Source: a virus. From it: DNA of 42,837 nucleotides. This document shows positions 7,342-29,064 of the stretch, in pieces; position 1 is the first letter of the stretch; every line of letters begins with the position of its first letter. The DNA lies in IMG/VR virus record IMGVR_UViG_3300020596_000044, positions 1-42,837 of that record; one strand, given 5' to 3'. The notes under the pieces are model-generated. The model ran no database searches and was not told the origin of the DNA. It was given only the letters and a program-made list of their open reading frames with translations. The position numbers and the translations under genes were made by a program.

Positions 7342-9282
7342 TCAAGTCTCCTTGAATATTTTCTCAAATGCGTCATCCCACGTCCCCAGCGTGGCCCCCT
7401 TGGAGTACCCGGTTGCCCGGTTCTCAAAGAAATTTGTATGTTCATGACCGCTGATTAAATGATCGACCCACGGCAAGGGGTTCTCTTTCACCCCGTAATT
7501 GGGCTTCATTCCCAATTCAATCAGGCGACGATCACAGATGTATCGGACATATTGTTTTACCTCGGCCACCGCCAATCCCTGAACTCCACCCATTTCAAAG
7601 GCAAGGTCCACGAAGGCATCTTCCATCTCCACCGTGATCCGAGCCGCATCATAAATTTCCGTCTTCATTTGATCGTCCCAGACCTCGGGATTCTCCTGAA
7701 TGAACAGCCGGAATAACTGAATCATGCTCTCACAATGCAGGGATTCATCTCGGACAGACCACGAAACGATCTGCCCCATCCCCTTCATCTTACCAAAACG
7801 GGTAAAATTGAGCAGAATCGCGAAACTCGCGAATAGAGATACGCCTTCGCCGAATGCACTGACTCCGGCGAGGGTCCGGGCGATGGAACGGATATCGTTC
7901 ACATTGAATCCGCTCATGTAGTCGGATTTGTCTTTCATTTCCTTGTACTTGAGGAAAGTCGAATATTCGACTTCGGGCATTCCCACGGTGTCGAGAAGAT
8001 GTGAATATGCCGCGATGTGAACGGTATTTCCCGTGAAGGACACTTTCCCGTTTCGACGGGAGACGAGGTTTTGGGTCGGAACAGACACACAATAAACTTT
8101 CCCCTCGTAGGGGACTTCCTTTCGATGGGGATAGGTTCGCCATACCCGGTCCGAGAACGAGATTACCCAACAATCCTTCATCGTCATCGGATTATCGCCA
8201 TTTGGCAGAATGACTTCGCATATATCGTCGTGGGAACGATTCAATGAGATAGACGCCGCCCGGTAGCCCAAGGACGCAATTGCCTGAACCTTATCAACAG
8301 CGGCACGATTTGTATTATACCAATATCTCCCCTCACTTCCGTCCCACTGTAAGACTTCCTCAATGAACGAGTCCGCCCACCCGGAGGATATCTTGCTCAA
8401 ATCGATCCAATCGAACGTCTTCAACGAATCGATGGCAATCTCTCCCGGAACAGCAAAGGTAATTACGGTTCTTCCCCCTTCTTTGGGTTTCGTCGAATAA
8501 GTAACCCCAGTGTGATCGAGAAGATCGGTCAATCGGGTTATTTTTCGTTCTTTGTGTAGAACAAAATCACAAGTGCGCCATTCTGGATTAGACGATGGAC
8601 AATTCCCTCGCAAGGAACCATCAGCCTGAATCGCAATAAGAAGCCGATCATATTTCGTAAGAGTGGCTCCGTTTCCGCTTCCATAGCCGGAAACGGGATA
8701 AAGATAATTCCTGCCCCATTTTCCTTGATACGACTTCTTTTTGGAAACAACCTGAGACGAGGGATGTTTCAAAATCAAGTCATGATTAGGGGTCACGCAA
8801 ATATCGGTAACCTTATTTTCATAGTGATGCATCAAACCGGAATAATCATAGGAGACAACTCGGGCCGGATTCACGAAAGAAATCGTTTCCGTAGTCATGT
8901 CATATTGGGCGATTTTGTCAGACTTTGTAATGTCAACGACGGATTTCCATCCATTTGATGTCAACAATTCGGTTTTATCATCAAAGCATTCCATATTTGC
9001 GAACGCGGTGAGCATCATTCGAACTTCGGTGGGTTTGAACACCTGCAAATATTTGGACATGTAGCATTCCGAGATGTCCACGTCCATTTGCGTAAACAGT
9101 CGGAAAATCTGCGTGAGCAGGTTCTTCTCCTCCGGAGAGAGGTTCGTCTGCCAGTCCTGCACGTCATCTCCGAGTGGGACCTCCTCGGGAATCCAGTGAA
9201 TTTTTTGCTGAATTTCCCATGCCTGAAAACAAGCGGGGTATTGGTGGGGTTTGTATACGCGACGTGATTCAAGTAGTGACAT
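7342..9282 (-). CDS. nrdB: Ribonucleotide reductase class Ia small subunit, intein-interrupted
   Basis: 646 codons from the ATG at 9282 (MSLLESRRVY) after GGGAG; removing the 321-residue intein leaves a 325-residue R2. R2 houses the diiron centre and tyrosyl radical for reducing ribonucleotides to deoxyribonucleotides. Visible features: the split site reads ME(98) then, after the intein, TVHIAAYSHL, so the iron ligands Glu and His (E. coli E115, H118) are in different exteins and the radical Tyr (E. coli Y122) is the eighth residue counted from E98. The second iron-ligand set appears as GEGVSLF and RDESLHCE. It is downstream of nrdA and a homing endonuclease whose end overlaps its start by 14 nt. 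Confidence 0.96.
   Translation of the reverse strand: MSLLESRRVYKPHQYPACFQAWEIQQKIHWIPEEVPLGDDVQDWQTNLSPEEKNLLTQIFRLFTQMDVDISECYMSKYLQVFKPTEVRMMLTAFANMECFDDKTELLTSNGWKSVVDITKSDKIAQYDMTTETISFVNPARVVSYDYSGLMHHYENKVTDICVTPNHDLILKHPSSQVVSKKKSYQGKWGRNYLYPVSGYGSGNGATLTKYDRLLIAIQADGSLRGNCPSSNPEWRTCDFVLHKERKITRLTDLLDHTGVTYSTKPKEGGRTVITFAVPGEIAIDSLKTFDWIDLSKISSGWADSFIEEVLQWDGSEGRYWYNTNRAAVDKVQAIASLGYRAASISLNRSHDDICEVILPNGDNPMTMKDCWVISFSDRVWRTYPHRKEVPYEGKVYCVSVPTQNLVSRRNGKVSFTGNTVHIAAYSHLLDTVGMPEVEYSTFLKYKEMKDKSDYMSGFNVNDIRSIARTLAGVSAFGEGVSLFASFAILLNFTRFGKMKGMGQIVSWSVRDESLHCESMIQLFRLFIQENPEVWDDQMKTEIYDAARITVEMEDAFVDLAFEMGGVQGLAVAEVKQYVRYICDRRLIELGMKPNYGVKENPLPWVDHLISGHEHTNFFENRATGYSKGATLGTWDDAFEKIFKET
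8026..8988 (-). mobile_element. Intein in nrdB (321 residues) with LAGLIDADG-type domain
   Basis: Begins at Cys99 (CFDDKTELLTSNGW, block A) and ends SFTGN before Thr420. Block B is CVTPNHDLIL, containing T-x-x-H. The C-terminal blocks are KVYCVSV and SRRNGKVSFTGN. The penultimate splicing residue is Gly rather than the usual His, a known variant. The middle carries LLIAIQADGS and FIEEVLQWDGSE, matching the two LAGLIDADG helices, so a homing endonuclease domain is present although the motifs are degenerate. The insertion lies directly after iron ligand E98. Confidence 0.93.
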
Positions 9283-11050
9283 TTTTATTCTCCCATACCC
9301 AACGAGTCTTTCCGCAATCATAGATGCGTTCTGCGCCGATTTGTTGAGTCATTTCTCTTTCAGTACCAGTAAGACCGAAACGCTTCATCAATTTCTCTTT
9401 CCGGAATGTAGATTTATGAAAGCGCGAGTTTTTCCAAACGTATTCATAATCCGGAGCCAATTCTTTATCCTGTTTGAATCCTAGACGTTCATACACGGTT
9501 CCATCGTACCAACGTCGATCTGAAAATGAAATCACCCGGTCGGGGTGTCTCATCTTTATATAGGACGAGAATAAGCGCGAGGCAATTCCGGGATGACGAC
9601 GGTTGTCGCTACAGAATCGGGAAAGTTCCAACTCGGTGTTATTCCGAGAGGGAGAAAATGTCATCACGGACACGAGAGAGGTTTCATCGTATGCCCCGAT
9701 TGCCTCGCTGCGTCCGCGAACCGCTCCGCGAAGATGATATTGTTCTAGGAACCGACTACACTCCGTGGCGGAGACCGGGGAAATCTTGAGAGATCGTGCG
9801 CCGATTCCGGATTCACCATGATTGATCTTATGGCGCAAAATCGATTCCACTATTGGGCGCTTGGTTCGCCATTCATCCTCGTACAGGGTGATGAGTGAAA
9901 TGCCATTCTCCTCACACCGTTCCAATTTACGCTTATGGTAGTGGCGATATTTTCCCCCGGACTCGCTGTGCCAGTATAGCCCGCAATACTCCACAGCCAC
10001 GCGTTTCTCTGGCAGAAACAAATCAAGTTCCATGGGGACGATCAAATCTCGCCGTCTGCGCTCTACTTGTTCACCCAATGATTCCAAGAAGTCTCCGACT
10101 TCCGTTTCCCCCTTGGAGAGACTCACCCCACACGAGGGGCATCCCTGCGGCCTTACATGGTGATCCGGACTTTGGGCGAAGTCCCCGTGTTTCGGACACG
10201 AGATGACAACCGGGGTGGTCGATCCCGTATATCGGACTTTACTATAATCGTATGTTTCTCCATGGACTTGGGTCGATTTTTGAATGAACGACGGGGTATC
10301 CACGACAACCCGGCCCGTGCAAACCGAACATCCGTTTCCGTTCAAATGGGAATTCGGCGTTTGTGAGAAATCCCCATGAATGGGACAGGTAATAATGACC
10401 TTTCGGTTGTTTCGCTCGTAGAAGGTTTTCTCATATGTGTACCGATTCTCGTGCACCAGACGTGCCTTGGTGATGAACGAGCAAGTGTTTGTAGATTCTT
10501 TCCCCGCGCATTGGGGGCATCCGCTCCCGCGCAAATGGATATTCGGGGTTTGATGGAATTCTCCATGCAGGGGACAGGTTATCGTAACCTTCTCGGAGGA
10601 TTTGACGTACTCGGTTCCCCGATAGGCGTATTTGTCTCCGTGTACCAAACGGGCCTTGACGATGAATGAATCAGTGCTCGTTGATTCTTTTCCCGCACAT
10701 CGGGGACACTTGGCCCCCCTACAGTGCGCGTTTGGTCGTTGAAAGAATGATCCATGAATCGGGCACTCTATACGACTGGGCTTGTTCCACGCATAAGAGG
10801 TCCTGTCATATTGATACCGTTCACCGTGGGCTTTCCGCGCCCTGACCACATACTCGTCGAAAGAAACCCGACGCGTATCAGCCGAACATTTGCGGCACCC
10901 GTGACCTTGTAGATGAGAATTCGCGATACACGACCATTCTCCATGGATCGGACATCCCACGATGATCCGATCCCTCAACTGGTTTGCCTTAACCTTGCTG
11001 TAGTCGTATCGCTCGCCGTGAACCGTTTTGAATTTCTCAATCAGATTCAT
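9269..11050 (-). CDS. Free-standing homing endonuclease: five zinc-ribbon repeats plus Vsr-like nuclease
   Basis: 593 residues. Residues ~1-310 hold five ~60-residue DUF723-type repeats, each with CPxHG, a later His and GCxxC, i.e. probable Cys/His zinc sites for DNA recognition, alternating with VHGxxYxY. Residues ~320-410 look like a Vsr/PD-(D/E)XK nuclease: ELDLFLPEKRVAVEYCGLYW followed by H, and later LITLYEDEW. Residues ~420-560 resemble a GNAT-like domain (RSEAIGAYDETSLVSVMTFS). A paralogue lies at 27415-29034. The gene has no clear Shine-Dalgarno, starts right after the preceding TAA, and its end overlaps the nrdB start. It sits between two intein-bearing genes. Confidence 0.85.
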   Translation of the reverse strand: MNLIEKFKTVHGERYDYSKVKANQLRDRIIVGCPIHGEWSCIANSHLQGHGCRKCSADTRRVSFDEYVVRARKAHGERYQYDRTSYAWNKPSRIECPIHGSFFQRPNAHCRGAKCPRCAGKESTSTDSFIVKARLVHGDKYAYRGTEYVKSSEKVTITCPLHGEFHQTPNIHLRGSGCPQCAGKESTNTCSFITKARLVHENRYTYEKTFYERNNRKVIITCPIHGDFSQTPNSHLNGNGCSVCTGRVVVDTPSFIQKSTQVHGETYDYSKVRYTGSTTPVVISCPKHGDFAQSPDHHVRPQGCPSCGVSLSKGETEVGDFLESLGEQVERRRRDLIVPMELDLFLPEKRVAVEYCGLYWHSESGGKYRHYHKRKLERCEENGISLITLYEDEWRTKRPIVESILRHKINHGESGIGARSLKISPVSATECSRFLEQYHLRGAVRGRSEAIGAYDETSLVSVMTFSPSRNNTELELSRFCSDNRRHPGIASRLFSSYIKMRHPDRVISFSDRRWYDGTVYERLGFKQDKELAPDYEYVWKNSRFHKSTFRKEKLMKRFGLTGTEREMTQQIGAERIYDCGKTRWVWENKNVTT

Positions 11051-11167
11051 TTAGGTCTTACGGGTTTTCTCTGTGGGTTCGACTTCGATTTTGACCGAAT
11101 GCAACGACCCGTCTTTATAAATTTTGGTGATATACCGGGCATTTCCGTAGACCGCCGTCTTACTCAT
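11051..11167 (-). CDS. Tiny protein between nrdA and the homing endonuclease
   Basis: 38 residues (MSKTAVYGNARYITKIYKDG ...). The ATG overlaps the stop of the 51-residue ORF upstream (ATGA) and its TAA directly abuts the ATG of the endonuclease. Beta-strand-like N-terminus, Lys/Glu-rich end. Coding is supported by the overlap and composition only. The function is unknown. Confidence 0.55.
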   Translation of the reverse strand: MSKTAVYGNARYITKIYKDGSLHSVKIEVEPTEKTRKT

Positions 11168-11319
11168 GGGTTCCCCATTCGAGGGAATTTCACTGATGGG
11201 ATCATCAATATGAATTCTATCGCATCATTCAAGCTGGGAATTTCGTCGGCGGGCATCGTCATCGTAAACACGAGGGGTCCCACAGGGGAAAATTCCACAC
11301 TAATCATTTTACTCATCAT
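11164..11319 (-). CDS. Tiny protein immediately after nrdA
   Basis: 51 residues (MMSKMISVEFSPVGPLVFTM ...) with GAGGTGAT directly ahead of a double ATG (11319 or 11316). It starts 14 nt after the nrdA stop and is coupled to the next small ORF by ATGA. Met-rich and hydrophobic but without a clear membrane segment. The function is unknown; the strong ribosome-binding site and coupling support translation. Confidence 0.6.
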   Translation of the reverse strand: MMSKMISVEFSPVGPLVFTMTMPADEIPSLNDAIEFILMIPSVKFPRMGNP

Positions 11320-11333
11320 ATCACCTCGTGTCA

Positions 11334-14300
11334 CTATTGACAGCTTTCACAGGCGAGGTATTTATCACTCTCGTTGGACATTTCATTGAGTGCCCGTTCC
11401 AGATCAGTCATGGGCTGCGTCACGTGGGAATCCTCGATGATCTTGACCCGCTCCACCTTCTGACCCACCGCGTGAGCCTGTTTGATGCTGCTCGAACGGC
11501 AGTAATAGAGGGACTTCACCCCTTCGCGCCATGCACGAAAGTGTGCGGAGAGGATGTCGATTTTGCTCGCATCGGGCCGGAAGAACAAGTTGTTCGATGC
11601 GGCTTGATCAATCATTGGGGCTCGATCCGCCGCGTGACGGATAATCCAATCTTGATCGATTTCGGACGCGGTCTTGTAAATCTCCTTCTCCTGTTGGGAT
11701 AGGAATTCCAGATGTTGGACCGATCCGCTCGTCGTGATGATAGAAGTCCACGTAGATTGATCATTCTTGCCGTACTTGTCCAGTACCTTTTCGAGGTATT
11801 CGTTTTTGACCAAGAATGATCCCGAAAGGGTCTTGTGCGTGTATGCGTTGGCGACCATGGGCTCGATTCCCGGGCTTGCTCCCCCGCAGATAATCGAGAT
11901 AGAAGCCGTGGGAGCCACACTGGTCTTGTTCGAGAATCGTTCCACAAAGCCGTGGCGGGCCGCATCCGGACACGCCCCCTTCTCACGGGCGATCACCTTG
12001 GATGCCTCGTCCACACCGGACTTGATGAATTTCCACATGTCCATGTTCCAGCGACGGGCGTTGTCCGAGGCCAGAGGAACTCCCATTCCCTGCAAGAAGG
12101 AATGAAATCCCATCACGCCCAAACCGACCGAGCGTTCTTGAGAGGCAGAGAAATTCGCCTTTTTCAAATCTCGAAACTTGGGATTTTTTCCGGTTTGATG
12201 AATGAAGTCTTCCAGCACGTTATCCAAGAATCTCATCACATCGATCACGAACGTTTTGTTCCCACGCCACTCCTTGTACTTCTCCAAATTCAACGAGGAC
12301 AAGCAACACACCGCAGTACGTTCGGTGTTTGTTGGAAGTACAATTTCTGAGCAATTGTGCACGACCAGACCATTCGCGATAAACGAGTGAGCGTGATCTA
12401 CTATAATATCATAAACGGCTTGTTGCGGTCCCTGTTCAATCGAGACAATTTTATCCTCGAACAATTCACGATACGATCCACGTTTGGTCTGAGCCGAGAT
12501 GAATTCTACAATTTTGGATTGTTTATTTTCGGTAGCGAAACCAATAATATCAACGAACTGATTTCGGTTCCTCTTCCCGATTACCAATTCCCAGTACGGA
12601 AGAGTATCGTACATTTTCCAACTTCCACGACCATCCGGCAACAACGTTTTGGCGTGATCACGCCGTTTGTATATGGCAGAAACGATTCCGAAATTCGCTA
12701 GAAGGGTCTGAGAGGCGGTCAAAATCTCATGAGAAGTTGAGGCCCACCCCTCTTTGTTTCGATTCACGGTACCGTCCGAGGTGAACAGACCTCGGAGGAA
12801 ACCAACGACGGCCTCTCTGGGGGCCACCCAGATGGTTTCTGGAACGGTCTTGGTGCTGGAATATTCCTGAGATACTCCTAGTTGCTTGAAGAATTCGCCC
12901 ACGCGACGATCATACACGATCAAATGACGCGACGAGCCATGATCCTGTACATTAACTTCTATTCCGAACAGATCGAAAATCATTTTTGTAATGATCGGTT
13001 GAAGTTCGAATTCGTTGTTGCCAATGACCCACGAGGCCCAATTCCTCTTGCGGTCGATGTAGCCATCGCCGATGATCCATCCCAGAAGAAAACCCAACTC
13101 CGAACTCCATTCGGTCGGAAATTTAACAGGAGTGTTTTCATACCGGGTTGTCCATATAGCAGAATCAGATTTCCACACCGGAGAGGGAAGTTTTGTTTCG
13201 GTTGACCACATTCCTTCTCCCGATTGAACCATCAAGCGGTCATCAACACACAGGTCTCCAATCTTTTTCCACCCCGTGTTGGTGAGAACGGCATGATCCG
13301 GAGTTCCCGAAACAGTGTATCCGTTTGAAGTCGTAATCTTGGTTACCACCGCATTTTCATTGGTACGTATCACACGCGACGATGCATAAGTGGATACCCC
13401 GAGATCGGCTTCGTGCTGAACGTGCAGTCCGTTGGCGTAACGCCTCGCACTAATTTGGGCATGTTCGAGAGTACGATGATCGGCAGATACAGTGAATTCC
13501 GTCTGATCCTGATAAAGTTTCTCAAGAGTGACGAGACCCCGATTGGTAACAATTCTCGTGTCACCAGTGAGACAGAGGTTGCTGGTAGTCACGGTAAGAC
13601 CATCACGACGATGCCATTCCGGAATCGCCCGATTGACCGTGTCGATGAACAACAAGTAGGGTTCGCCGGTTTCGATTCGTAGTTCAAGGATTTTCAGGAA
13701 CAATCCACGTGCGGAGAGTGAACGGATCACCGCACGAGTCTTCGGTGAACGCAGTTCCCACTGCTCGTCGTTCTCCACAGCTTCCATGAATTTGTCCGTG
13801 ATACAAATTCCATGATGCAAGTTCAAACACTTACGATTGGGATCGCCCCCGGTGGGCTTCCTCATCTGGAGGAATTCTTCGATCTCGGGATGATCAATCT
13901 GCATATACACGGCAGCCGATCCTCTCCTCAAGGAACCTTGGGATACGGCAAGCGTCTGTGCATCCATGGCTTTAATGAACGGGATCACCCCCGATGTCTT
14001 CCCCGAGGTCCCCGCGCGTTCACCCATGGAGCGAACATTACCCCAATAAGTTCCAATACCACCACCCGAACTGGCTAGGCGCATATTCTCTCGGTACACG
14101 TCCCACATGCCATCGAGAGAATCATCAACAGAATTCAAAAAACACGAAATGGCGAGACCACGATCCGTACCACCGTTGGAAAGAATCGGTGTGCTCGGCA
14201 TGAACCACAATTTACTCATGTAATCATAAAGACGCTGCGCGTGGGGAAGATCATCCGCGTACGAGTTCGCGACCCGCGCAAATAATTCCTGATAAGTTTC

Positions 14301-14405
14301 GTCCTTGTACAAGTATCGATCCGTGAGTGTTTCTCTACCAAACTGAGTCAAATTTTCATCGCGAAGATCATCGATGATGATCCCCTTATACTCTCGTCTC
14401 GACAT
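11334..14405 (-). CDS. nrdA: Ribonucleotide reductase class Ia large subunit, intein-interrupted
   Basis: 1023 codons; removal of a 407-residue intein leaves a 616-residue R1. R1 binds the ribonucleotide and carries the catalytic thiyl-radical Cys. Visible: redox Cys88 (AISCFLNSVDDSLDGM), the active-site triad N276-L277-(intein)-Cys685-Ser-Glu687 (E. coli N437, C439, E441), the second redox Cys in TAVCCLSSLNL, radical-relay SLYY, and a C-terminal CESCQ pair for reduction by thioredoxin or glutaredoxin. It is shorter than T4 or E. coli NrdA (about 750-760): the N-terminal ATP-cone is absent, so feedback by dATP may be lost. A perfect TATAAATA late promoter is upstream; nrdB is downstream past two tiny genes and a homing endonuclease. 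Confidence 0.96.
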   Translation of the reverse strand: MSRREYKGIIIDDLRDENLTQFGRETLTDRYLYKDETYQELFARVANSYADDLPHAQRLYDYMSKLWFMPSTPILSNGGTDRGLAISCFLNSVDDSLDGMWDVYRENMRLASSGGGIGTYWGNVRSMGERAGTSGKTSGVIPFIKAMDAQTLAVSQGSLRRGSAAVYMQIDHPEIEEFLQMRKPTGGDPNRKCLNLHHGICITDKFMEAVENDEQWELRSPKTRAVIRSLSARGLFLKILELRIETGEPYLLFIDTVNRAIPEWHRRDGLTVTTSNLCLTGDTRIVTNRGLVTLEKLYQDQTEFTVSADHRTLEHAQISARRYANGLHVQHEADLGVSTYASSRVIRTNENAVVTKITTSNGYTVSGTPDHAVLTNTGWKKIGDLCVDDRLMVQSGEGMWSTETKLPSPVWKSDSAIWTTRYENTPVKFPTEWSSELGFLLGWIIGDGYIDRKRNWASWVIGNNEFELQPIITKMIFDLFGIEVNVQDHGSSRHLIVYDRRVGEFFKQLGVSQEYSSTKTVPETIWVAPREAVVGFLRGLFTSDGTVNRNKEGWASTSHEILTASQTLLANFGIVSAIYKRRDHAKTLLPDGRGSWKMYDTLPYWELVIGKRNRNQFVDIIGFATENKQSKIVEFISAQTKRGSYRELFEDKIVSIEQGPQQAVYDIIVDHAHSFIANGLVVHNCSEIVLPTNTERTAVCCLSSLNLEKYKEWRGNKTFVIDVMRFLDNVLEDFIHQTGKNPKFRDLKKANFSASQERSVGLGVMGFHSFLQGMGVPLASDNARRWNMDMWKFIKSGVDEASKVIAREKGACPDAARHGFVERFSNKTSVAPTASISIICGGASPGIEPMVANAYTHKTLSGSFLVKNEYLEKVLDKYGKNDQSTWTSIITTSGSVQHLEFLSQQEKEIYKTASEIDQDWIIRHAADRAPMIDQAASNNLFFRPDASKIDILSAHFRAWREGVKSLYYCRSSSIKQAHAVGQKVERVKIIEDSHVTQPMTDLERALNEMSNESDKYLACESCQ
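12354..13574 (-). mobile_element. Intein in nrdA (407 residues) with LAGLIDADG endonuclease
   Basis: Runs from Cys278 (CLTGDTRIVTNRGLVTL) to the end FIANGLVVHN, followed by extein Cys685. Block B SGTPDHAVLTNTGWKKIGDL has the T-x-x-H motif. Blocks F/G are VYDIIVDHAHSF and NGLVVHN, with the canonical His-Asn. Two endonuclease helices, LGFLLGWIIGDG and VVGFLRGLFTSDG, carry the acidic residues expected for cutting. The element is visibly richer in A/T than the extein. The +1 extein residue is the catalytic Cys, so the enzyme cannot work until splicing. Confidence 0.96.
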
Positions 14406-27011: not shown

Positions 27012-27434
27012 CTAGAACTTCGAAATGATACGAACTCGGTCTACCCCGAGGTCCAAATCGTTCTGTTCATATTTATGCTCGCGGATAACCGGGGTCTTCA
27101 TTTTCACAGTTCGTTGTTCGAGAACGTTGGAGGATTTGGAGATTTTCAGCACCAGTGTGCTCGGGGATGAGGATTTGATCTGCACCGAGGTGCTGATCCG
27201 ACCGATCCAATCCCGAATCAGGTTCTTCACCTGAGGGATATTCGAGGAATTATTGACCGAGCTTTCCAACCCGGCGAATTGAATAACCAACTCGGTGGGG
27301 GTTTCATGGAGAAGCTTGATATAGACGTGGTCCATCGTGGTCATATCCGGGGCGAGCTTCAACAGGTCTTCCTCGCGATTCTTCCGAACCCGGTCCCAAC
27401 CCTTTTTGATCAAATCAAACGTGAGTAATGCCAC
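27012..27434 (-). CDS. Uncharacterised 140-residue protein under a late promoter
   Basis: Starts at a GTG (MALLTFDLIKKGWDRVRKNR) after GGAGAGGG. A helical start, then a Ser/Val/Ile-rich beta part. Its ribosome-binding site and late promoter (27453) both lie inside the 3' end of the homing endonuclease gene, which overlaps it by 20 nt. The function is unknown; late expression suggests virion assembly. Confidence 0.65.
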   Translation of the reverse strand: MALLTFDLIKKGWDRVRKNREEDLLKLAPDMTTMDHVYIKLLHETPTELVIQFAGLESSVNNSSNIPQVKNLIRDWIGRISTSVQIKSSSPSTLVLKISKSSNVLEQRTVKMKTPVIREHKYEQNDLDLGVDRVRIISKF

Positions 27435-29034
27435 TTAGAATTCCCTCTCCGGTATTTACGGGTTTCGCTTCCCACACCCACCGGGCTTTCCCGGCGTCGT
27501 AGAAACGAGAATAACCCGCCGCTATTGTACGATTTCGCTCGGTTCCTTCTCCGAGGAATATCTGTTTCCGAAATCTAGATTTATGATTTCGCCGTGGGTG
27601 AGTATCGCTCAGTCGGATATATGTGTAATCTTGTGCCACTCGGCCATTATAAGTGAACCCTCCGAATTTATAAGATTCCCCACTAAACCAACGTAAATCG
27701 GCAAACGTCACCACACTGGTAGGATTATGTTGTTTTCGAAACATCATAAACAGTTTCGAAAACAATCCCGGTCGGGTCTTGTAATCACTGGCATATCGGC
27801 GAAGTTCCCAATCGTATTGAGATTGTCGGGTTGGTTTACTCATTACCATCACTCCGACCAATACAGTTCCTTCGTATGCTCCGTAATGAATACCAGTGCA
27901 TCCTCCTTGTAGATGGTTTTTATCGAGAAATGAATTTCCCAGTCCTCGGTCTATTTTTTGAATTATCAAATTTCTTCCACCAACTCCTTTTTCCGCAAAT
28001 CCCAATGCATATCGGATTATTCGCTCACAAATAGGTCTTTTGTCTCGCCATTCATCTTCCGCAATCTGGACAAGACGGATACCCGCCTTCTTTGCTCTTT
28101 CATATTTTTCTCGATGGTATCCCGGAGAAAGAACTCGCCCCATACAGGGAGGAATTACATGAAACGCAAACCCGTGATACTCGATTCCGATATTCTTATC
28201 CGGGACCCATACATCAATTTCCAACCCATCCAGTGCCATTCGGTCGTCGGATTTACATTTTACTCCAAGAGATTGGACATATTCATAAATCTCTCGTTGT
28301 CCTTTGCTAATTTTACAAGTCGGACACCCGCTCCCACGAAGATGGTTGTCTGCGAGTTGTTCAAACATCCCGTGGGTGGGACACTTCAACGACACATTAG
28401 TTTTTGCATTTTCGTATTCAACGCCCTCGTATCCATAGCGGACACCGTGGGTCTTCTTAGCCGCATCAATAAATTCAGAAGTATCCATACGGACCGATCC
28501 CCCACACTTCGGACATCCCTGTCCCGAAATATGTTTTCCCGAGGTTTGCCAAAAATCTCCATGAATCAGACAGGTTATCAAAACCTTGACGCCGGAGGTT
28601 TTATATTCAACCCGTTCATAATTATATCGATCACCGTGGATACGCTTGGCCGATTCTAAGAAATCCGTTTGATTTTTTTTAGTCGTTCCGCCACAGCGGG
28701 GACATCCCTGACCAATGAGATGCTTCTTGGGGGTTTGTTCAAACTCGCCGTGTATAGGACAAACGATGACGATCTTAGTTTTCTTCGTAAGATACACGCT
28801 CTTGTCATATCTATAACGGTCACCGTGCCGAATTCTAGCCTGATTGATAAATTCACCAACATCAATTCGTTTCTTCCCCACACACGCGGGACAACCCTGC
28901 CCATTACGATGATGGTGAATTGATTTCCAAAAAACTCCATGAATGGGACAAACTATTTCAAGTTTTTTTCCCACGCGACCACGATAGGTATAACGGTTAT
29001 CGTGAATTTTCAGAAATTCTTCTATGCTATCCAT
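27415..29034 (-). CDS. Free-standing homing endonuclease: four zinc-ribbon repeats plus Vsr-like nuclease
   Basis: 539 residues from the ATG at 29034 (MDSIEEFLKIHDNRYTYRGR). Four ~60-residue DUF723-type repeats (each CPxHG ... H ... GCPxC; repeat 3 has CLIHG) fill ~1-250. A Vsr/PD-(D/E)XK-like core follows at ~265-360 (LEIDVWVPDKNIGIEYHGFA and LVQIAEDEW). A GNAT-like region follows at ~375-500 (GIHYGAYEGTVLVGVMVMSK). It is a diverged paralogue of the gene at 9269-11050; both end in (G)KxRWVWExK. The gene is visibly A/T-richer than its neighbours, and two terminators separate it from the gene upstream. There is no strong Shine-Dalgarno. Confidence 0.85.
   Translation of the reverse strand: MDSIEEFLKIHDNRYTYRGRVGKKLEIVCPIHGVFWKSIHHHRNGQGCPACVGKKRIDVGEFINQARIRHGDRYRYDKSVYLTKKTKIVIVCPIHGEFEQTPKKHLIGQGCPRCGGTTKKNQTDFLESAKRIHGDRYNYERVEYKTSGVKVLITCLIHGDFWQTSGKHISGQGCPKCGGSVRMDTSEFIDAAKKTHGVRYGYEGVEYENAKTNVSLKCPTHGMFEQLADNHLRGSGCPTCKISKGQREIYEYVQSLGVKCKSDDRMALDGLEIDVWVPDKNIGIEYHGFAFHVIPPCMGRVLSPGYHREKYERAKKAGIRLVQIAEDEWRDKRPICERIIRYALGFAEKGVGGRNLIIQKIDRGLGNSFLDKNHLQGGCTGIHYGAYEGTVLVGVMVMSKPTRQSQYDWELRRYASDYKTRPGLFSKLFMMFRKQHNPTSVVTFADLRWFSGESYKFGGFTYNGRVAQDYTYIRLSDTHPRRNHKSRFRKQIFLGEGTERNRTIAAGYSRFYDAGKARWVWEAKPVNTGEGILSGITHV
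27453..27458 (-). promoter_or_regulatory. Candidate late promoter inside the homing endonuclease 3' end
   Basis: CGTAAATAC lies 19 nt upstream of the GTG at 27434 and within the last codons of the endonuclease gene, so the downstream virion-type gene keeps its own late promoter. Confidence 0.6.
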
Positions 29035-29064
29035 AATGGTCCCTTTGGTACCAATTACATACAA

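Follow-up and report, generated by a model that had tools for sequence, protein, structure and literature searches.

Ribonucleotide reductase (RNR) inteins related to those described here are known from several systems. The NrdB of Aquifex aeolicus carries a LAGLIDADG intein between two iron ligands; its splicing and the activity of the resulting enzyme have been demonstrated, and the presence of the intein during maturation led to more iron loading (PMC8772380). The AceL NrdHF intein (6zgq), also from an RNR beta subunit, is a class 3 split intein that has a Cys at C2:4 and neither a C2:13 His nor a penultimate His (PMC7891396). In the SPbeta group, the intein of bnrdE lies in the large subunit, and the beta-subunit gene of SPbeta contains a group I intron, not an intein (PMC3653736). 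Inteins in both NrdA and NrdB were reported in 2020 for the Pectobacterium phage vB_PatM_CB7 (CB7), and the parts of that report drawn on here do not map them to catalytic residues (PMC7344957).

Here we examined an RNR operon in IMGVR_UViG_3300020596_000044, a single metagenomic virus record from IMG/VR. The window is the whole stretch analysed, 42,837 nt in length, and no near DNA relatives were found among cultured phages for its positions 1–25000. It is highly probable that both RNR subunit genes in the window contain full-length LAGLIDADG inteins, selfish mobile elements that each arrived by ordinary homing at one of two hot spots. This reading draws on the observed positions of the inserts, their motifs, the fold of the NrdB intein, intact catalytic acids, homologues at the same sites and empty alleles.

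The RNR operon and its two inteins

Both subunit genes lie on the minus strand, nrdA at 11334–14405 (1023 aa) and nrdB at 7342–9282, and both are open and in frame. The likely start of nrdB is the ATG at 9282 (MSLLESRR), and the open frame extends upstream to another ATG at 9321. NrdA has the hallmarks of a class I RNR, namely the radical Cys in SNLC.EI, a second redox Cys, a C-terminal Cys pair and a YY pair, and NrdB has the E-x-x-H metal motifs and the Tyr. Domain profile searches of the NrdA N-extein gave no match to an N-terminal ATP-cone. The rest of the contig (14498–42775, minus strand) encodes a DnaJ-like protein, a saccharopine-dehydrogenase-like protein, two topoisomerase II subunits, a 5′-3′ exonuclease, a primase, a DnaB-like helicase, a UvsW-like helicase and a UvsX-like recombinase; these make up a T4-like replication set within a fragment of 42.8 kb.

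The initial annotation had placed a 407-residue intein between L277 and Cys685 of NrdA, and re-deriving the junctions (TTSNL/CLTGD...GLVVHN/CSEIV, with a slash marking a splice junction here and below) returned the same boundaries to the residue. The N-extein (277 aa, 13575–14405, minus strand) is that of a class I RNR large subunit, the intein (407 aa, C278–N684) occupies 12354–13574 on the minus strand, coordinates that were re-translated and matched, and the C-extein (339 aa plus stop, 11334–12353, minus strand) starts at the catalytic Cys and ends in CESCQ. The SNLC(S/T)EI sequence of NrdA aligns with the SNLCTEI or SNLCSEI motif of solved class I alpha subunits, in agreement with the earlier assignment of the Cys following the intein as the thiyl-radical residue, the equivalent of E. 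coli C439. The insert has the features of a class 1 intein, with Cys1 at C278, TPDH in block B, a terminal VVHN and a Cys at +1. It scored above the cut-off for Pfam Intein_splicing (1.4e-18) and LAGLIDADG_3 (1.8e-17), and the NCBIfam intein_Nterm match (2e-11), also above cut-off, begins exactly at residue 278 of NrdA. Both LAGLIDADG catalytic acids are kept, D170 in GDG and D267 in SDG (intein numbering). Since the radical Cys is also the +1 residue, the enzyme's own thiyl-radical Cys would double as the splicing nucleophile under the standard class 1 mechanism.

In NrdB, a 321-residue intein had been proposed between Glu98 and Thr420, two residues before His422, and this too proved exact. 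All parts are on the minus strand: the N-extein (98 aa, 8989–9282) ends on the iron ligand Glu98, the intein (321 aa, C99–N419 counted from the ATG at 9282) covers 8026–8988, and the C-extein (227 aa plus stop, 7342–8025) starts with TVH, whose His is an iron ligand. The junctions are FANME/CFDDK...VSFTGN/TVHIAAY; in spliced numbering the insertion point falls after Glu98 and before Thr99, two residues ahead of the ligand His101, and METVH (Glu98, His101) aligns with the first E-x-x-H metal motif of the solved subunits. Class 1 features are again present, with Cys1 at C99, TPNH in block B, TGN/T at the end and a Thr at +1. The insert fell below the Pfam Intein_splicing cut-off (15.7 vs 35.8 bits); full-length homologues with 31–55% identity occupy the same site elsewhere, and the AlphaFold2 model of the insert (pLDDT 91) has a Hint fold with an inserted LAGLIDADG endonuclease, for which the best Foldseek matches in the PDB were the intein-borne homing endonucleases TliVMA, PI-PfuI and PI-SceI (hits including 7qsu and 1dq3). 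The LAGLIDADG acids are present at D123 and D216 (intein numbering).

The NrdB intein matches AceL NrdHF by profile and by fold. Like it, the window's intein has a Cys at C2:4 (Cys300, intein residue), the class 3 branch position, and lacks both the C2:13 His and the penultimate His; it differs from AceL NrdHF in having Cys1, the class 1 nucleophile, and a LAGLIDADG domain in cis. The penultimate residue is Gly instead of His in all 97 full-length family members, which likewise all have Cys1, and 88 of the 97 have a Cys at C2:4, in a sample that was partly selected on the Cys1 and C2:4 positions. Class 3 was considered for the NrdB intein and rejected because Cys1 is present; compared with the WCT triplet, it has Leu at N3:12, Cys at C2:4 and Thr at C1:5.

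After translation each intein would excise itself, in NrdB with Thr99, between two iron ligands, as the likely +1 nucleophile, and splicing would yield a 616-aa alpha subunit and a 325-aa beta subunit. Computed from the ORFs, these lengths are exactly those predicted beforehand. The initial annotation also held that both subunits are inactive until spliced. Both inserts do sit at catalytic residues, so an active enzyme should need both splicing events, but the claim calls for a caveat on metal binding: the Aquifex NrdB intein raised iron loading during maturation (PMC8772380), and for this reason the NrdB precursor in the window may not be inert towards metal.

Empty and occupied sites in other genomes

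Comparison with intein-free alleles, which had been expected to bear on the junctions, upheld them, as relatives run uninterrupted through both sites. Among the fetched loci, the alignment was uninterrupted across the intein site in 100 NrdA loci and 110 NrdB loci, and across both in 82. So many empty alleles fit gain at a conserved site, not ancestral insertion.

In viral contigs, searching with either intein as a single protein gave no hits, and alignments were needed. At the NrdA/E site SNL/C, homologous inteins are present in SPbeta, Brochothrix A9 and staphylococcal (Sepi) SPbeta-like phages; these differ from the window's in sharing 23–27% identity with it (tblastn) and in having class Ib NrdE as host protein. 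The same site holds a different intein lineage in CB7, in the Pectobacterium phage PhiTE and in the IMG/VR contig L185. The NrdA inteins of PhiTE and L185 are 37% identical to each other and give only partial, weak matches to the window's.

At the NrdB site (E/T or E/C), inteins occur in PhiTE, PcCB7V and CB7 (Certrevirus) and in the IMG/VR contigs L178–L183 and L186, with those of L178–L181 being 50–55% identical to the window's. NrdA is intein-free in L178, L180, L182, L183, L186 and PcCB7V and partial in L181, and among the contigs every complete nrdA is uninterrupted except that of L179. In most phages that have it, the NrdB-site intein is accompanied by an intact NrdA, so the two inteins are not inherited as a pair. 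Elsewhere, the wider family has NrdB inteins at the Asp ligand in L185, and on or beside E-x-x-H motifs in L175, L177, L184, L203, L213 and L299–L303. The Aquifex intein lies in the second of these motifs (Leu229/Cys230), whereas the window's lies in the first. L299 is a contig from an uncultured Anaplasmataceae MAG that could be host or phage; its NrdB is 64% identical to the window's over the N-terminal part and has a 35% identical intein at the second E-x-x-H motif.

Origin and mobility

In the intein tree, a site-specific clade (8 rows, support 100/99) unites the window's NrdB intein with the IMG/VR ones and PhiTE's is placed elsewhere, so the NrdB site was probably invaded at least twice. 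Two or more intein lineages appear to have colonised each of the NrdA and NrdB sites. Mapped onto the NrdB extein tree, inteins have a patchy distribution with four changes, at least two of them forced by well-supported branches. GC3 is 49% in both inteins and 56–65% in the exteins, which is consistent with a foreign origin; base composition in 500-base windows showed only a slight break at the inteins, and GC3 was clearer. Compared with the window, L179 is 55% identical in the NrdB intein and 40% in the extein, and L181 is 51% and 61% identical, respectively. From these identities, conflict between intein and extein trees was anticipated; it was tried as proof of horizontal transfer in the E98-site clade and was set aside, since the AU test gave no support (p-AU 0.53). 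Joint or vertical descent with losses is therefore possible in this clade, and horizontal transfer within it is only likely.

A 593-aa nuclease ORF (9269–11050, minus strand), absent from the initial annotation, lies between nrdA and nrdB and consists of treble-clef repeats, a Vsr-like nuclease and a C-terminal GNAT domain. Its stop falls just inside the start of nrdB in a tight overlap. Between nrdA and this ORF are two small overlapping ORFs (~51 and ~38 aa, ~11051–11319, minus strand), the second of which stops at the nuclease start (TAAATG). The nuclease ORF matches the mobile intron protein 3r3p by profile (1.6e-7) and PHROG 559/3339, and its core has the Vsr-like (EDxHD) pattern, with D343, E354, H361 and E393 invariant in 18 aligned sequences. 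Among solved folds, its C-terminal domain is nearest to Mom (8bv8), a DNA-modifying protein of phage Mu, and R419, H439, R478, D511 and R513 are invariant in this part, suggesting that it is functional. A paralogue with treble-clef repeats, a Vsr-like nuclease and a C-terminal domain is located at 27415–29064 (minus strand), away from the RNR genes. Phage annotations label the family as homing endonucleases, and nuclease–Mom fusions have been proposed to be restriction-like (PMC7824862); the two paralogous ORFs could be either homing endonucleases or nuclease-plus-modification pairs.

The position of this ORF between both genes, its overlap with nrdB and its family of nucleases raise the idea of collaborative homing, in which the nuclease would cleave RNR alleles without inteins and both inteins would travel along with the repair tract, and free-standing nucleases offer a precedent for this with introns (PMC10448857, PMC2814812). 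We consider this improbable, as both inteins keep their own LAGLIDADG acids and the paralogue lies elsewhere on the contig. Furthermore, the 82 other loci where the nuclease ORF has relatives all lacked RNR genes within the flanks fetched, and the ORF is absent from every other intein-bearing RNR locus in our sample. With no other locus pairing the two, a role for the ORF in intein mobility is unsupported and we do not tie it to the inteins. It is less of a stretch, though still unlikely, that the inteins are decaying, with splicing persisting, one or both endonuclease domains dead and inheritance being vertical. The E98-site clade trees do not reject vertical inheritance (p-AU 0.53), and the same-site intein of L186 is shortened (250 aa) and without much of the endonuclease domain, so decay does occur; the inteins in the window, however, have full-length domains with both catalytic acids in each, and the confident fold of the NrdB intein and the patchy distribution also argue against decay.

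The two inteins might instead form a coordinated conditional switch, with splicing held back by redox or metal conditions in the host and released together, timing the dNTP supply. Both splice junctions are on catalytic residues, both inteins begin with Cys, the +1 residue in NrdA is the radical Cys, and in Aquifex iron loading rose with an intein in the other metal motif of NrdB (PMC8772380). This nonetheless seems very improbable to us given that the two inteins are from different families with no shared regulatory motif seen, that most NrdB-site phages have an intein-free NrdA and the pair is not co-inherited, and that conservation fully explains the choice of sites. We would give equally little credence to a more specific version, where the NrdB intein, having class 1 and class 3 nucleophiles, splices by a dual redox- or iron-sensitive route and, coupled with NrdA, has the subunits mature together, gating the dNTP supply.

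Ordinary homing at two hot spots is the explanation we prefer. During co-infection each endonuclease would cut intein-free alleles at the DNA encoding an invariant active-site motif, and repair would copy the intein in. Conservation of such a motif across RNRs would make it a favoured target, as would the loss of a working enzyme whenever an intein is removed imperfectly. The inteins would be different elements with separate arrivals, and finding both in one operon would be a coincidence between two hot spots, for which PhiTE and CB7 offer a parallel.

Double occupancy

The initial annotation had called inteins in both subunits of one operon less common, which overstates their rarity. In addition to the two Pectobacterium phages, L179 is double, with an intein at the same NrdB site that is 55% identical to the window's and a 143-aa mini-intein in NrdA (9654–11786, plus strand) one residue after the radical Cys (SNIC/C...GN/TEI); its nrdB adjoins the intein-bearing nrdA. 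L185 (4556–9719, plus strand) has inteins at SNL/C of NrdA and at the Asp iron-ligand site of NrdB (TQTD/C), making this Asp position the third NrdB metal site taken by the same intein family. Tenacibaculum phage PTm1 has one in NrdA near the first active-site Cys and one in NrdB at the second E-x-x-H motif.

The sampled NrdB inteins occupy metal-ligand motifs, being the Asp in L185, the first E-x-x-H in the window and the second E-x-x-H in Aquificota and phages, and the sampled NrdA inteins sit directly at the radical Cys. Inteins as a rule cluster at invariant catalytic codons, and the window adds a clean case of this; a two-intein operon is also a convenient system for asking whether the order or speed of splicing limits RNR assembly.

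PhiTE and CB7 have inteins at the very same two sites as the window, one in each subunit, with the junctions QSNL/C...Q/CMEI in NrdA and WAFSE/C...GN/TIHSRS in NrdB. They differ from it in that their NrdB exteins are only ~21% identical and their NrdB intein 31–33% identical to the window's, their NrdA intein is of another lineage with no clear full-length match to that of the window, and their nrdA and nrdB also carry HNH introns. The intein pair is uncommon, yet it has been reached repeatedly and unlinked, and the window operon adds a well-formed instance of a double-intein arrangement already known, in which both sites are known hot spots.
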